64,000 nucleotides of DNA. Origin: an uncultured Flavobacteriaceae bacterium (GTDB taxonomy: Bacteria > Bacteroidota > Bacteroidia > Flavobacteriales > Flavobacteriaceae). The stretch lies in NCBI GenBank assembly GCA_947497245.1, contig CANMFO010000006.1, positions 62,001 through 126,000 on the forward strand, given 5' to 3'. Below are positions 1,320 through 4,821 of the stretch, one piece after another. Both the position numbers and the translations under genes were made by a program. Every line of letters begins with the position of its first letter. The stretch's first letter is position 1. The notes under the pieces are model-generated. The model had not been told where the DNA came from and did no database searches. It saw only the letters and a list, made by a program, of their open reading frames with translations.

Positions 1320-3086
1320 TCAGTTCCTTTTGACCCTAAAGGTCACGCGCCGATTGGTAATGACGCTGGTCGGGCAGCCGAGGCGCAACGTATTGTCTTT
1401 CGATGACCCAATTGCTTGCCCGGTACCGGCCACCAAGGGAACGCCGTAGGTCGGGCTCGAGGGCGTGGTATCCACGGCCCCGGCCAAACGGTTGTTGGCG
1501 TCCAGGTGATTTCTGGTCAAGGTGCCACCACCCTCCAGGGCATCCGGGCAGTTATCCCCGTCGCTGTCCAGGTCCAAATGGTCCGGGGTACCATCTGCAT
1601 CGGTGTCGACTACCGTGCAATCATTGTTACAACCATCGGCCTCATATACACTGGCCAGCCCATAGATCAAACTTATTTCGGGTATTGAGGTGGTTATGGT
1701 GGTTCCCGAAGTACCTGTTGTGGGGTCATCCAATACTATAATGGAATCAATTGCACCGTATACCACTTGACAACTTCCAGAAATGGCCGCTCCCCAGGCA
1801 AGCCCGGGAAGGGGAATCGGTGCGGAATTGCTTATATAGTTATAGGTATTGGGGTCTATGTCCAGTTCAAACATATAATGTGCAGAGGCATCCGTTGTTG
1901 GATAAGCCAAATAATATATTTTCCCGTTGACCAGGGAAAAGTCCCCCGCAGGAATATAGCCCGCTATGGTGGCCCAAGGGGTAATGGAAAATGAAGGAGA
2001 CAGCGTTACCCTGTAAATGGTCGTGGATTCAAAACCAACCAGGGCGGAGCCATCGGGAAGGAAAGACAGGGCTTTGCCCCTCGGATATGGTGTTGTTCCC
2101 AAAATAGTTTCCGTACAGGTGCTTAAATCGACTCTTTTTATGTCCGAAGTCGAACTTCCCCATTCTATGGTATAAATTTGACCGTCCGGTGCTATTCCGA
2201 TATCCCCGGATACCTGAAGCCCCGAACATAGTAGATTGACCGCGTTGGTATCCAAGTCATAGGTAGCAATTTCTCCAGAACCCGTATTTATGTACACCTC
2301 CCCAAGAGTAATACTTGGGCATATATGCCCTTCATTTATATCTGAGATCCCATCGTTATCATCGTCCAGGTCCTGGCAATCGGGTATACCGTCCCCATCG
2401 GTATCCTCGTTATGGAACAACCGGACCCCATCGAGGGCCATATACTCAAAACTGAACCCGGTAGCATCATTGTCTACCCTAAAGGTCAGGTCCTGAAATG
2501 TCGCCGTGGCCGTAAAGGTCATTTCCTCCTCCATCCACAGTTGGTTGCCCTCGCCCTTATAGTCCATCGCCGTACTATAAAAAGTCTGGGCACCGAAGGT
2601 TACCCTCCATCGCGCCTGTTGGGCCGGGTCTATGGGCGTCCAGCCGTCGAGGCCCGCATTGCCCTGGTAAAACCTCAGTACATAGGTCTTCCCGATGTCC
2701 AGGCCGGTTATTCGCGTCACAAGGGCCTCGCTATGGCCATCATCCCTTACCCAGCCACCAACAAAAACACCCCCATCGGGGGAGGGGGGCATCCCGTCCG
2801 CAAGGCCGCCCCAATCATACAGGGCCGCAGAGGTCCCCGTGATGGGCATGGGAGAGACCCAGGAATCCGGGGAGCCATTGGGCAACCATCCCGATCCCGC
2901 GTACACGTTGCCATTGTATGCCTCACCACTGGCCACGCCGGACAGGGACTCGAAGGTACCATCGGCATCTGAACTGAAATCGAAGGGTACCGGTTGGCAT
3001 TGTCCGAACCCAATTTCGCAGTTAAAAATAAAAACAAGCAGGGGCAACGCCCAGGTGCTTCTTAAAAGCGGGTCTTTGGAGATCAT
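1320..3086 (-). CDS. Secreted Asp-rich (TSP3-like) multidomain protein
   Basis: A 588-residue exported protein with an N-terminal signal peptide (MISKDPLLRSTWALPLLVF, ending near FGQC). Residues about 25-225 resemble a beta-sandwich carbohydrate-binding-like domain. Residues about 250-480 have the repeated LSFLPDGSALVGF, FSLVNGKIYYLA pattern of a beta-propeller-like domain. Two thrombospondin type-3-like calcium-binding stretches flank the propeller (DTDGDGIPDCQDLDDDNDGI and DTDADGTPDHLDLDSDGDNC). The C-terminus ends in a short basic tail (SVITNRRVTFRVKRN) instead of a recognisable type IX secretion sorting domain. Ligand and role are unknown; a surface adhesin or glycan binder is a guess. 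A TAACTTTG box at 3190-3197 on this strand may be its -7 element. Confidence 0.75.
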   Translation of the reverse strand: MISKDPLLRSTWALPLLVFIFNCEIGFGQCQPVPFDFSSDADGTFESLSGVASGEAYNGNVYAGSGWLPNGSPDSWVSPMPITGTSAALYDWGGLADGMPPSPDGGVFVGGWVRDDGHSEALVTRITGLDIGKTYVLRFYQGNAGLDGWTPIDPAQQARWRVTFGAQTFYSTAMDYKGEGNQLWMEEEMTFTATATFQDLTFRVDNDATGFSFEYMALDGVRLFHNEDTDGDGIPDCQDLDDDNDGISDINEGHICPSITLGEVYINTGSGEIATYDLDTNAVNLLCSGLQVSGDIGIAPDGQIYTIEWGSSTSDIKRVDLSTCTETILGTTPYPRGKALSFLPDGSALVGFESTTIYRVTLSPSFSITPWATIAGYIPAGDFSLVNGKIYYLAYPTTDASAHYMFELDIDPNTYNYISNSAPIPLPGLAWGAAISGSCQVVYGAIDSIIVLDDPTTGTSGTTITTSIPEISLIYGLASVYEADGCNNDCTVVDTDADGTPDHLDLDSDGDNCPDALEGGGTLTRNHLDANNRLAGAVDTTPSSPTYGVPLVAGTGQAIGSSKDNTLRLGCPTSVITNRRVTFRVKRN

Positions 3087-3189
3087 TGGTAGGTTTTGGT
3101 CGGTTTTGGGCTTACTTACTATCCCCTCCCAGATCTATCAAGCATCCGCCTGTAGGTCTTGGATAGGTAAAACTTTGTCATAATCATTA

Positions 3190-3197
3190 CAAAGTTA
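3190..3197 (-). promoter_or_regulatory. Possible -7 box TAACTTTG
   Basis: A perfect match to the Bacteroidota -7 consensus TAnnTTTG lies about 105 bp before the start of the secreted protein. No TTG or TTTG sits at the expected distance upstream, so this is a weak call. Confidence 0.3.
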
Positions 3198-3357
3198 GCC
3201 GGAGAAGTCCGTGGTTGTTGGTCCCATTTAGGGAACGGTAGGTTTTGTCCGTTTATAGGTAATGGGAGGAAAACACCGGTAATCGCCGATCTGTCAAGGT
3301 GTTACCGAGTATCCTATTTGGCAAGGAATATCATGTTCAGTGTTCTTTACTGCGATA

Positions 3358-3510
3358 TCAAGAAGGTCCCCGAGAAACTCCCGGCCGGAACCCTTTGGTC
3401 GATCGGTTCTGGCCCAGGTTGTGCTGCTCCACCCTTTTGTCAAGGGTTTCGGTCATACCTTTGTATAGCCTGCCGTCCTTCCCGCTCCTCAGGATATAAA
3501 CGTAGTACAT
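3358..3510 (-). pseudogene. Truncated GIY-YIG nuclease-like gene
   Basis: From ATG 3510 this encodes 50 residues beginning MYYVYILRSGKDGRLYKGMT, which matches the first half of a single-domain GIY-YIG protein (VYI and YKG motifs, then the Arg-containing DKRVEQHN segment). The frame then stops after NRSTKGFRPGVSRGPS. The second half, which carries the catalytic Glu and is present in the two neighbouring copies as EREKYLKS, is absent. It lies directly after the terminator of the tRNA-Arg gene. It is probably a decayed remnant, though expression of a short peptide cannot be excluded. Confidence 0.6.
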
Positions 3511-3520
3511 GTGATCCGGA

Positions 3521-3553
3521 TAAAAAAAGGGCCTTGCATGTTCGCAAGACCCT
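3521..3553 (-). terminator. Intrinsic terminator of tRNA-Arg
   Basis: On the minus strand AGGGTCTTGC, a six-base loop and GCAAGGCCCT form a 10-bp stem with one G-U pair, followed by seven T. It starts 11 bases after the mature tRNA 3' end. Confidence 0.85.
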
Positions 3554-3563
3554 TTGGAATTAG

Positions 3564-3637
3564 TGACCCCGGCAGGATTCAAACCTGCAACCCTCAGAGC
3601 CGAAATCTGATGCGCTATTCAGTTGCGCCACGGGGCC
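3564..3637 (-). tRNA. tRNA-Arg, anticodon TCG
   Basis: This is a complete 74-nt cloverleaf on the minus strand. The acceptor stem is GGCCCCG/CGGGGTC with one G-U pair. The D-stem is GCGC/GCGC with the loop AACTGAATA. The anticodon stem is TCAGA/TCTGA with the loop TTTCGGC, giving anticodon TCG (reads CGA and probably other CGN codons). The T-stem is GCAGG/CCTGC with the loop TTTGAAT, and the discriminator base is A. CCA is not encoded. Two partial copies of its 5' half lie upstream at 3926-3947 and 4236-4257, each as the end of a GIY-YIG repeat unit. A strong terminator follows. Confidence 0.95.
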
Positions 3638-3872
3638 TTATATTTGACCTTCTCCACCTTCTCCCTGCTGCTGACTTTAAATATTTTTCCCTTTCCCTTG
3701 CCTCTGTTCTTGTAAGATACTTCTCAACATGAACCACTTCCCAGGGAACAAAAGCTTTGGTTGATCTCGTTTTTTTCGAATTATGCTGTTTTAATCTGAC
3801 GTCCATATTATCCGTCATGCCTACATAATATCTATCAAAATCCCTACTATAAATTATATAAACCTTGAACAT
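3615..3872 (-). CDS. GIY-YIG nuclease-like protein, copy 1
   Basis: From ATG 3872 this encodes 85 residues starting MFKVYIIYSRDFDRYYVGMT. It has the VYI and YVG forms of the GIY-YIG core, the catalytic-type Arg in MDVRLKQHN and the Glu in AREREKYLKS, so the nuclease fold looks complete. Members of this single-domain family (UvrC N-domain/YhbQ-like) are presumed DNA nucleases, but the substrate is unknown. The frame has no stop before the tRNA. It reads through the tRNA-Arg 5' end and terminates in the D-loop (TAG at 3615-3617), so the last seven residues are encoded by tRNA sequence. The 310-bp unit is duplicated upstream with two base differences, one of which changes Arg to Lys. Confidence 0.8.
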   Translation of the reverse strand: MFKVYIIYSRDFDRYYVGMTDNMDVRLKQHNSKKTRSTKAFVPWEVVHVEKYLTRTEAREREKYLKSAAGRRWRRSNIRPRGATE

Positions 3873-4182
3873 TCCAACTCGAATGTGATGCGCCCCGCCC
3901 GAACGTGCCGTTAGGTACGGGCGGGTATTCAGTTGCGCCACGGGGCCTTATATTTGACTTTCTCCACCTTCTCCCTGCTGCTGACTTTAAATATTTTTCC
4001 CTTTCCCTTGCCTCTGTTCTTGTAAGATACTTCTCAACATGAACCACTTCCCAGGGAACAAAAGCTTTGGTTGATCTCGTTTTTTTCGAATTATGTTGTT
4101 TTAATCTGACGTCCATATTATCCGTCATGCCTACATAATATCTATCAAAATCCCTACTATAAATTATATAAACCTTGAACAT
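3847..4182 (-). CDS. GIY-YIG nuclease-like protein, copy 2
   Basis: From ATG 4182 this encodes 111 residues. The first 78 are the same as copy 1 except for one Lys/Arg change near the C-terminus of the domain. The frame then continues through the partial tRNA-Arg copy and a GC-rich hairpin, and ends inside the start region of copy 1, giving an unrelated tail of about 33 residues. A GTG at 4251 would extend the protein through tRNA-derived codons but is unlikely as a start, since the GIY-YIG family begins at the MFKVYI methionine. yqeY lies upstream with no obvious terminator between, so the genes may share a transcript. Confidence 0.75.
   Translation of the reverse strand: MFKVYIIYSRDFDRYYVGMTDNMDVRLKQHNSKKTRSTKAFVPWEVVHVEKYLTRTEAREREKYLKSAAGRRWRKSNIRPRGATEYPPVPNGTFGRGASHSSWNVQGLYNL
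3894..3925. repeat. GC-rich hairpin inserted in tRNA D-loop copy (unit 1)
   Basis: The arms CCCGCCCG and CGGGCGGG (8 bp) enclose a 16-base loop. The element separates CTGAATA from GCGCATCA, which are contiguous in the intact tRNA-Arg, so it sits at the D-loop/D-stem junction of the tRNA copy. No T-run follows on either strand, so it is not a typical terminator. Confidence 0.7.
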
Positions 4183-4203
4183 TCCAACTCGAATGTGATG
4201 CGC

Positions 4204-4235
4204 CCCGCCCGAACGTGCCGTTAGGTACGGGCGGG
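4204..4235. repeat. GC-rich hairpin inserted in tRNA D-loop copy (unit 2)
   Basis: An identical copy of the 32-bp hairpin at 3894-3925, in the same position of the second 310-bp unit. Confidence 0.7.
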
Positions 4236-4283
4236 TATTCAGTTGCGCCACGGGGCCTATTCACTATTTTTACGTTCGCCTAT

Positions 4284-4736
4284 TTATGCCAACTTACTTT
4301 TTACAATGGTCGAGATGGTCTTTCCATCGGCCTGTCCTGCCAATTGTTTGGAGACCACGCCCATGACCTTGCCCATATCCTTCATGCCTTCCGCTCCAGT
4401 GGTCGCTATGGCCGCTACCACGGCTTTTTCAATTTCCGCATCGTCTAATTGAGCAGGCAAAAACTGTTCAATGACCGCCACCTGTGCCAATTCGGGCTCG
4501 GCCAGGTCGCTTCTTCCCTGATCCAAAAAGATGGCCGCGCTGTCCTTTCGCTGCTTTACCAACTTTTGGACCAACTTCACCTCTTCGGTCTCGGAAAGTC
4601 CGTCTCCGGAACCTGCCTCAGTCTGAGCCAACAACAGGGCAGATTTAATGGCCCGGAGCGATTCCAGGGCAACCTTGTCCTTGCCTTTCATCGCTACTTT
4701 CATCTGTTCCATTACCTTGTCCTGTAAACCCATCAC
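4284..4736 (-). CDS. GatB/YqeY domain protein
   Basis: A 150-residue protein of usual YqeY length, opening MMGLQDKVMEQMKVAMKGKD. It shows the helical YqeY signature AIKSALLLAQTEA and the C-terminal GatB/YqeY-type segment MKDMGKVMGVVSKQLAGQADGKTISTIV (residues about 115-143). The family is related to the tRNA-binding tail domain of the amidotransferase subunit GatB, and a role with tRNA is presumed but not proven. It follows ftsZ on the same strand, separated by the dcw terminator. It precedes the tRNA-Arg/GIY-YIG region by 26 bp without a visible terminator. Confidence 0.9.
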   Translation of the reverse strand: MMGLQDKVMEQMKVAMKGKDKVALESLRAIKSALLLAQTEAGSGDGLSETEEVKLVQKLVKQRKDSAAIFLDQGRSDLAEPELAQVAVIEQFLPAQLDDAEIEKAVVAAIATTGAEGMKDMGKVMGVVSKQLAGQADGKTISTIVKSKLA

Positions 4737-4760
4737 TTTAAATAATTGGACTGCGAAGAT

Positions 4761-4797
4761 AAAAAATAAACCCGAAAATCCATTGAATTTTCGGGTT
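4761..4797 (-). terminator. Intrinsic terminator after ftsZ (end of dcw cluster)
   Basis: On the minus strand AACCCGAAAAT and ATTTTCGGGTT form a perfect 11-bp stem with a 7-base loop, followed by a T-rich tract (TTATTTTTTA). It lies 25 bases after the ftsZ stop and should separate the dcw transcript from yqeY. Confidence 0.9.
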
Positions 4798-4821
4798 CAA
4801 AATTTATGGGGAAACTTGCAG

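Follow-up and report, generated by a model that had tools for sequence, protein, structure and literature searches.

Many bacteria carry, within or beside their tRNA genes, a unit of about 300 bases that appears to represent a family of minimal selfish elements not described before. Each unit combines a palindrome, 16-41 nt long in most cases, with a tRNA remnant in decay, a single-domain GIY-YIG gene and a restored part of the tRNA, and it lies between a palindrome-split pseudo-tRNA and the intact tRNA, on the tRNA's strand in every counted case. In our judgement, the chances are slightly better than even that this is a homing-like mobile unit of tRNA genes, spreading by tRNA targeting and tRNA rebuilding; both its cutting and its movement are putative.

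Two units upstream of a tRNA-Arg gene

The window, by which we mean the whole stretch of 64,000 nucleotides analysed here, from an uncultured Flavobacteriaceae bacterium, carries a single tRNA on its minus strand, tRNA-Arg(TCG) at 3637-3563. The features of this locus are as follows.

3358..3510, minus strand: truncated GIY-YIG gene of 50 codons, downstream (3') of tRNA-Arg
3563..3637, minus strand: intact tRNA-Arg (anticodon TCG), found by ARAGORN and Rfam (RF00005); nt 1-22 = 3637-3616
3615..3872, minus strand: GIY-YIG gene of unit 2, 85 codons, its stop TAG being tRNA nt 21-23
3616..3925, minus strand: unit 2 (proximal), 310 bp, with palindrome, tRNA remnant, GIY-YIG gene and tRNA nt 1-22
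3847..4182, minus strand: GIY-YIG gene of unit 1, 111 codons, its frame running through the next palindrome
3882..3893, minus strand: tRNA remnant nt 23-34 of unit 2, 11/12 matches
3894..3925, minus strand: palindrome of unit 2
3926..4235, minus strand: unit 1 (distal), 310 bp, with palindrome, tRNA remnant, GIY-YIG gene and tRNA nt 1-22
4192..4203, minus strand: tRNA remnant nt 23-34 of unit 1, identical to unit 2 here
4204..4235, minus strand: palindrome of unit 1, sitting between tRNA nt 22 and 23
4236..4257, minus strand: outer copy of tRNA-Arg nt 1-22, 22/22 identical

Both units lie upstream of tRNA-Arg (at higher coordinates), between the outer nt 1-22 copy and the intact tRNA. The first 22 nt of the tRNA are thus present again at 3947-3926 and 4257-4236, while the terminal nt 1-22 of unit 2 are the head of the intact tRNA-Arg itself. 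The original prediction had described two near-identical 310-bp units, each with a GIY-YIG gene and the first 22 nt of tRNA-Arg, and it holds: the units differ by 2 mismatches, and the outer copy agrees at 22 of 22 positions. In the homing-like scenario described below, this outer copy would be the recipient's own tRNA head.

Each unit opens with the 32-nt palindrome CCCGCCCGTACCTAACGGCACGTTCGGGCGGG, placed between tRNA nt 22 and nt 23. As tRNA nt 23-34 come after the palindrome, the break in the tRNA copy lies exactly at the nt 22/23 junction, in agreement with the claim that a hairpin separates D-arm sequence that is contiguous in the intact tRNA. A chance origin of the 8-bp match GCGCATCA, which had been considered for this locus, is excluded, because the match belongs to the remnant of nt 23-34; such remnants inside units match at 11 of 12 positions in the window and reach up to 52 nt elsewhere.

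The GIY-YIG proteins of both units match PF01541 (E ~8e-16), and the TAG stop of the last gene falls inside the tRNA-Arg D-loop. The truncated gene at 3358..3510 is likely a remnant of a 3'-type unit (see below). Neither this third gene, nor the D-loop stop codon, nor the matching arrangement at further tRNA genes of the genome had been part of the original prediction, and the same is true of the recurrent palindrome at stem boundaries, of the downstream (3') version and of the versions without a nuclease gene. Folding of the leader RNA was no better than that of shuffled sequences (z 0.34); the palindrome alone folded better than its shuffles (z -2.58). A group I intron or another known RNA was rejected as an explanation, as only the tRNA scored above the Rfam gathering score within 3000-4800, where two chance-level lncRNA matches stayed below threshold.

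The same plan at other tRNA genes

The whole genome yielded ten GIY-YIG matches, four of them within long open frames (462-730 codons). Of the other six, three are those of the window; the remaining three lie at tRNA-Asp (L001), at tRNA-Asn (L005) and at a tRNA-Pro copy (L006), the last being located at a contig end, with its isotype read by eye. At tRNA-Asp, head copies followed by a hairpin are found upstream. At tRNA-Asn the order is mirrored: after the intact tRNA come a terminator, the gene and a palindrome, beyond which the 3' end of the tRNA is repeated. Two geometries can be distinguished. A 5' unit has its gene and the split pseudo-tRNA on the upstream side of the intact tRNA, and the restored part runs from nt 1 to the insertion point; in 3' units, the intact tRNA comes first, then the gene and then the split copy, and the restored part is the 3' half with its terminator.

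In both geometries, the pseudo-tRNA is kept outside the palindrome and decays between the palindrome and the gene. A block starting at tRNA nt 1, followed by an insertion in the copy, was seen in 56 of the 75 5'-type loci. In these 56, 1005 of 1016 positions were identical in the outer part of the pseudo-tRNA, an inflated figure since the block ends are chosen by the aligner, and 872 of 1616 in the 30 nt that follow on the inner side. The remaining 19 of the 75 upstream-type loci gave no such alignment, several of them because the copy stops at the palindrome.

Arrays of two or three units were found, the last unit often being broken or truncated. Three contig ends of the window's genome (the start of G000:C4, the end of C5 and the start of C11) break inside tRNA-Asn or tRNA-Pro units or beside tRNA-Pro. 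Arrays have thus probably been collapsed or broken by assembly, and the units counted here are minimum numbers. GIY-YIG copies that are truncated or interrupted by stops occur at tRNA genes and elsewhere (window 3358-3510; L046, L054, L080, L082, L086 and L087), which suggests gain and decay. In addition, some tRNAs (L041, a tRNA-Arg ACG, as well as L018 and L029) have 15-17 nt of their 3' end repeated 167-338 bp further downstream, with no gene; these repeats are possibly scars of 3' units or of other integrations.

Association with tRNA genes and host range

An intact tRNA within 150 bp was found for 18 of 40 small GIY-YIG loci from ten genomes of the genus (42 loci were fetched, and two without a profile match were not counted), for 17 of 45 distinct loci of the family, and for 72 of 80 loci from named genomes, the best 80 of 391 relatives. 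Our own arithmetic, from 36 and 38 tRNA genes per ~5 Mb, puts the chance expectation at ~0.5 percent. No intact tRNA lay within 150 bp of 22 of the 40 genus loci, 28 of the 45 distinct family loci (a few cut by contig ends) and 8 of the 80 named loci (again, the best 80 of 391), 4 of these 8 being less than 100 bp from a contig end. The same distance held no tRNA at any of the 14 large multi-domain GIY-YIG loci considered (out of 32 such genes), nor at any of 20 viral relatives with 30-43 percent identity.

The gene and the tRNA were on one strand in all 106 distinct positives. The nearest tRNAs represent ten isotypes: Ala, Arg, Asn, Asp, Leu, Met, Phe, Pro, Tyr and Val; an eleventh call, SeC, we read as a split Val copy. 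The same DNA occurs under two labels in two cases (L096 = L152 and L110 = L144); distinct counts exclude such repeats, while 62/78, 47/62, 56/75, 72/80 and the stop-codon and dN/dS counts still include duplicated loci. Related genomes, in which the original prediction had proposed to look for the hairpin and the GIY-YIG gene, thus do show the plan at tRNA genes, here at ten isotypes and in several phyla. Slippage or a one-off duplication without counterparts at other tRNA genes, the objection named with the prediction, is excluded by this recurrence at ten isotypes, in many genomes and in several phyla.

Among the best 80 of 391 relatives, the loci from named genomes belong to Flavobacteriia and other Bacteroidota, and the MAG hosts are labelled Ignavibacteria, Chlorobiota, Magasanik-, Roizman-, Lloyd- and Colwellbacteria, Chloroflexi and Nitrospiraceae. 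The hosts beyond Bacteroidota, which include CPR MAGs, are all MAG contigs, which may have been binned wrongly; no tRNA lies within 150 bp of the Nitrospiraceae locus. Carriage of the gene by phages or plasmids was rejected, as plasmid and phage collections contained no relative and none of the 20 viral relatives was within 150 bp of a tRNA. A defence system was likewise rejected, the window protein giving only weak partial PADLOC matches to PDC-S14 (8e-5 and 2e-4).

The palindrome and its placement

Two palindrome types dominate. Hosts of CCTGCCTGCCGGCAGGCAGG include, for example, Chlorobiota (L197), Chitinophagaceae (L206) and Magasanik-, Roizman- and Colwellbacteria MAGs, and the type CCCGCCCGTACC...GGTACGTTCGGGCGGG is found in Flavobacteriia, the window included. 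We collected 78 clean insertions of at least 14 nt in tRNA copies, with no tRNA letters lost, and 62 of them had a good palindrome (end score of at least 5 of 8; lower ones were dropped). A strict perfect-stem test was passed in 43 of 75 cases vs 16 of 285 control stretches.

These palindromes sit exactly at boundaries between stems and unpaired parts of the cloverleaf in 46 of 61 distinct cases, where 10.8 would be expected under uniform placement (47 of 62 vs 11.0 if one duplicate locus is included). The 47 boundaries are divided among the D-loop/D-stem 3' side (25), the start of the D-stem (11), the anticodon stem/loop (9) and the end of the acceptor stem (2). After collapse to distinct combinations of isotype, anticodon and position, 18 of 28 remain at a stem boundary; these counts are not independent of each other.

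A 20-nt palindrome was present in 12 of 13 genomes, 11 of which had been selected because units were found there, with 1-12 copies each (at most one mismatch) and none for the reversed control. Out of 58 copies, 34 were examined. Gene-bearing units account for 10 of these and tRNA copies lacking a full gene for 6; another lies near a tRNA of which no copy can be recognised, and the other 17 have neither a tRNA nor the gene nearby. Split tRNA pseudo-copies without the gene in the 1-3 kb fetched were found for Gly (L248, a weak copy), Thr (L252), Phe (L253) and Tyr (L275 and L282); the split copy of tRNA-Asn at L261 has just a 64-codon GIY-YIG fragment ~300 bp away. One of these is located in the window's own genome (L252, G000:C10:16939-16958), where a partial copy of tRNA-Thr, split by the 20-nt palindrome, adjoins the intact tRNA-Thr, and the 3 kb around it carry no nuclease gene, making it a palindrome-only version. 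The 20-nt palindrome also occurs exactly in 33 stretches of viral contigs (L323-L355).

The 32-nt type was found in 10 of 199 family genomes, with up to 21 copies per genome. Its 30 places with loci comprise 6 in units with the gene, 1 near tRNA-Arg without the gene, 1 adjoining a tRNA-Leu-like fragment at a contig end (by eye) and 22 with neither nearby, the genomes G162 and G179 contributing most of the 22. The 21 copies in G179 lie mostly in short repeat tracts away from tRNA genes (L302, L307, L316, L318 and L320-L322). Within the genus, CCCGATAGCTATCGGG has 10 copies, of which 3 are in units and 7 near neither a tRNA nor the gene. A high-copy REP was rejected on the grounds of these numbers: 1-12 copies in 12 of 13 chosen genomes, and the 32-nt type in 10 of 199 genomes with no more than 21 copies.

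The GIY-YIG protein and its lineage

Residues Tyr5, Tyr16, Arg26, His30 and Glu62, which we take to be the catalytic residues of GIY-YIG enzymes, are invariant in two sets of 17 and 28 sequences. The PF01541 match and these conserved Y, Y, R, H and E place the protein in the GIY-YIG superfamily. The nearest solved relatives are UPF0213 proteins (1e-9) and SLX1 structure-specific endonucleases (1.6e-4). No NCBIfam model matched the four tRNA-linked proteins tried, and the relative at L218 gave a weak match to PHROG 5123, a homing endonuclease with a GIY-YIG motif (5e-5). The dN/dS values range from 0 to 0.52 (38 pairs with a defined value among 40 shown), so the gene is under purifying selection.

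The intact tRNA contains the stop codon of the gene in 57 of 74 5'-type loci (one locus being counted twice), and in 48 of the 57 this codon is at nt 8-10 or 21-23. Should maturation of the tRNA by RNase P come first, the mRNA would lose its stop, and such stop loss could limit expression of the nuclease.

The protein tree (159 rows, 69 columns) was built by a quick method and is weakly resolved; ORFs with stops in the domain and duplicate loci of one place were left out. The tree label is the nearest tRNA within 800 bp; five isotype labels and eight insertion positions were assigned by hand. Isotype changes 28 times on this tree vs 62.2 times for shuffled labels (minimum 57 of 200 shuffles; 116 rows). 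Within Arg loci alone, the insertion class requires 10 changes vs 19.3 (minimum 14 of 300), and the palindrome type over all loci requires 12 vs 25.9 (minimum 18). Such clustering means that palindrome and position tend to travel with the nuclease lineage. One tRNA-Leu branch (SH-aLRT 96) unites Ekhidna, Magasanikbacteria, Colwellbacteria, an unclassified MAG and two genomes of the window's family, along with one Nitrospiraceae row without a tRNA (L212); the tRNA-Leu rows L091, L185 and L190 fall outside this cross-phylum branch. Vertical descent would also give isotype clustering, though not by itself patchy occupancy.

Such patchiness is seen at orthologous tRNA genes. All ten genomes examined, which represent species of one genus and not strains, have the tRNA-Arg(TCG) gene adjoining what we presume to be a yqeY-like gene. 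The occupied and empty loci that the original prediction called for comparing are both there: units lie upstream in one genome only, that of the window, and the other 9 of 10 loci are empty upstream, some with short 3'-end scars downstream. Among the genes examined, tRNA-Leu(CAA), tRNA-Met(CAT) and tRNA-Ala(GGC) carry units in G002 and none in the window's genome, G000.

How the units might spread

In the homing-like scenario, the nuclease would cut an intact tRNA gene at a cloverleaf stem boundary, mostly at the D-loop/D-stem or the anticodon stem/loop, and repair from a unit-bearing copy would then insert the unit. The carried tRNA piece and the recipient's remaining piece would together make a complete tRNA, so that the cell would survive. 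The palindrome might mark the junction and spoil the split copy as a target, while tandem arrays might arise by recombination between repeated tRNA heads or tails. In favour of this scenario are the proximity to tRNA genes, the shared strand, the palindromes at stem boundaries, the targets tied to lineage and the patchy occupancy. Against it, many small GIY-YIG relatives lie off tRNA genes, palindromes also occur solo, and the 85-codon protein has no room for an extra DNA-binding domain. The main gap is that the pseudo-tRNA is split at occupied loci, yet an intact tRNA remains beside the unit; this tRNA should stay a target, and some unseen protection must therefore exist. The originally predicted minimal element that targets a tRNA, rebuilds its end and amplifies is thus strengthened by ten isotypes, several phyla, patchiness, tandem arrays and conserved residues, with its homing as the part that we infer.

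A close rival is a hairpin-specific nuclease. Here, an SLX1-like structure-specific enzyme would cut DNA stem-loops at the boundaries of single and double strands, the palindrome would be the element's own end, moved as RAYT enzymes supposedly move REPs, and tRNA genes would become targets because they fold. The 46 of 61 distinct palindromes at cloverleaf stem boundaries agree with such hairpin-driven transposition, as do the closest solved relatives, UPF0213 and SLX1 structure-specific endonucleases, and the gene-less palindromes in tRNA pseudo-copies together with those dispersed elsewhere. However, tRNA isotype and position can be predicted from the protein clade, a pattern not expected if structure alone were recognised, and we are inclined to think this explanation unlikely.

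If, instead, the palindromes were independent small mobile repeats, hitting tRNA duplicates because a spare copy tolerates insertion, the nuclease gene would be a bystander near tRNA duplications. Solo palindromes speak for this, with 17 of 34 copies of the 20-nt type and 22 of 30 of the 32-nt type near neither a tRNA nor the gene. Nevertheless, near-exact copies of the palindromes are few (1-12 per genome in 12 of 13 genomes, with the 32-nt type confined to 10 of 199), the nt-1 block followed by the insertion is seen at 56 of 75 upstream-type loci, and the palindrome type tracks the protein tree, all of which makes a bystander role improbable. We find it hardly credible that the gene is an ordinary, immobile host gene near tRNAs whose tandem copies arose by replication slippage: arrays of near-identical units and purifying selection would fit, but ten isotypes, several phyla, patchy occupancy at orthologous tRNA genes and the broken and truncated copies would not.

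Returning to the homing-like reading, its broadest form can be put forward only tentatively, at somewhat below even chances: a new class of element, made of a nuclease gene and a palindromic end, which would enter tRNA genes at cloverleaf stem boundaries, rebuild the tRNA with the half it carries, move across phyla with isotype specificity, and have gene-less, palindrome-only derivatives, much as there are autonomous and non-autonomous transposons. If true, these would be among the smallest nuclease-driven elements known to us, with an essential RNA gene as their home, and they would explain why Bacteroidota genomes contain a number of small GIY-YIG genes together with broken copies of tRNAs. 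An 85-residue protein would also make tRNA-gene targeting and cross-phylum transfer testable. To our knowledge, how some small dispersed palindromes spread is unsettled, and the nuclease would be a candidate enzyme for this.

Comparison with known systems

Parts of the unit resemble homing genes, tRNA-restoring integrative elements and dispersed palindromes, and the hallmarks of integrative elements, REP/RAYT systems and group I introns that were tested are absent. Among the open-access papers covered here (PMC6506933, PMC3733652 and PMC12306157 included), we recognised none that ties GIY-YIG genes to bacterial tRNA genes or to these palindromes. In the covered part of the open-access papers matched, the palindrome letters have 0 occurrences.

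Like free-standing (intronless) GIY-YIG homing genes, the units consist of one nuclease gene beside its presumed target, carry a piece that restores this target, have a patchy distribution and possess GIY-YIG catalytic-type residues. Some fungal mitochondrial GIY-YIG homing genes arrive with a duplicated end of the target gene, the atp6 gene of Allomyces reportedly being such a case. A homing gene is expected at or in its presumed target, and 72 of 80 loci (the best 80 of 391) lie at an intact tRNA, with insertions inside tRNA copies. Its site should be tied to the nuclease lineage, as is seen in Arg loci (10 vs 19.3 changes), although vertical descent is also compatible with this. Finally, occupied and empty alleles should coexist, and the tRNA-Arg locus is occupied upstream in 1 of 10 species of one genus. 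Unlike free-standing homing genes, the units target tRNA genes of ten isotypes and usually have a palindrome at the junction; their protein lacks a separate DNA-binding domain, and its cleavage is putative.

Tyrosine-recombinase integrative elements likewise enter tRNA genes and complete them again with a tRNA piece that they bring along, as our units would. Here, however, the units are ~300 bp long, have no integrase, can restore the 5' end, possess a junction palindrome and occur in tandem; we rejected such an element for the window because the 310-bp unit has one GIY-YIG gene and no integrase. The UPF0213 and SLX1 GIY-YIG proteins, which are stand-alone or repair proteins, are similar to ours in sequence.

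Small dispersed palindromic repeats include the SDRs of Nostoc and the RPEs of Rickettsia. Clean insertion of the palindrome is shared with these, whereas the palindromes described here are tied to a nuclease gene and to tRNA pseudo-copies. RPE-1 of Rickettsia is named in PMC3733652, as are REP sequences with GTAG/CGTC palindromes and RAYT (TnpA-REP) enzymes. REP/RAYT systems (PMC3733652) and our units share short dispersed palindromes tied to one nuclease-type gene, as well as gene-less versions. In our units, however, a GIY-YIG protein replaces the Y1/HUH transposase, the copy number is low and the palindromes are placed in tRNA copies. A REP/RAYT system was rejected for the window because the locus has no Y1 (HUH) transposase, PF01541 and PF10544 being the only domain matches there.

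Lastly, some small GIY-YIG genes away from tRNA genes are flanked, as judged by eye, by other palindromic, REP-like repeats (L043, L044, L045, L046, L070, L083 and L071, the last lying between genes that we named by eye as trpB-like and trpA-like). A wider link between GIY-YIG genes and palindromes is therefore possible.
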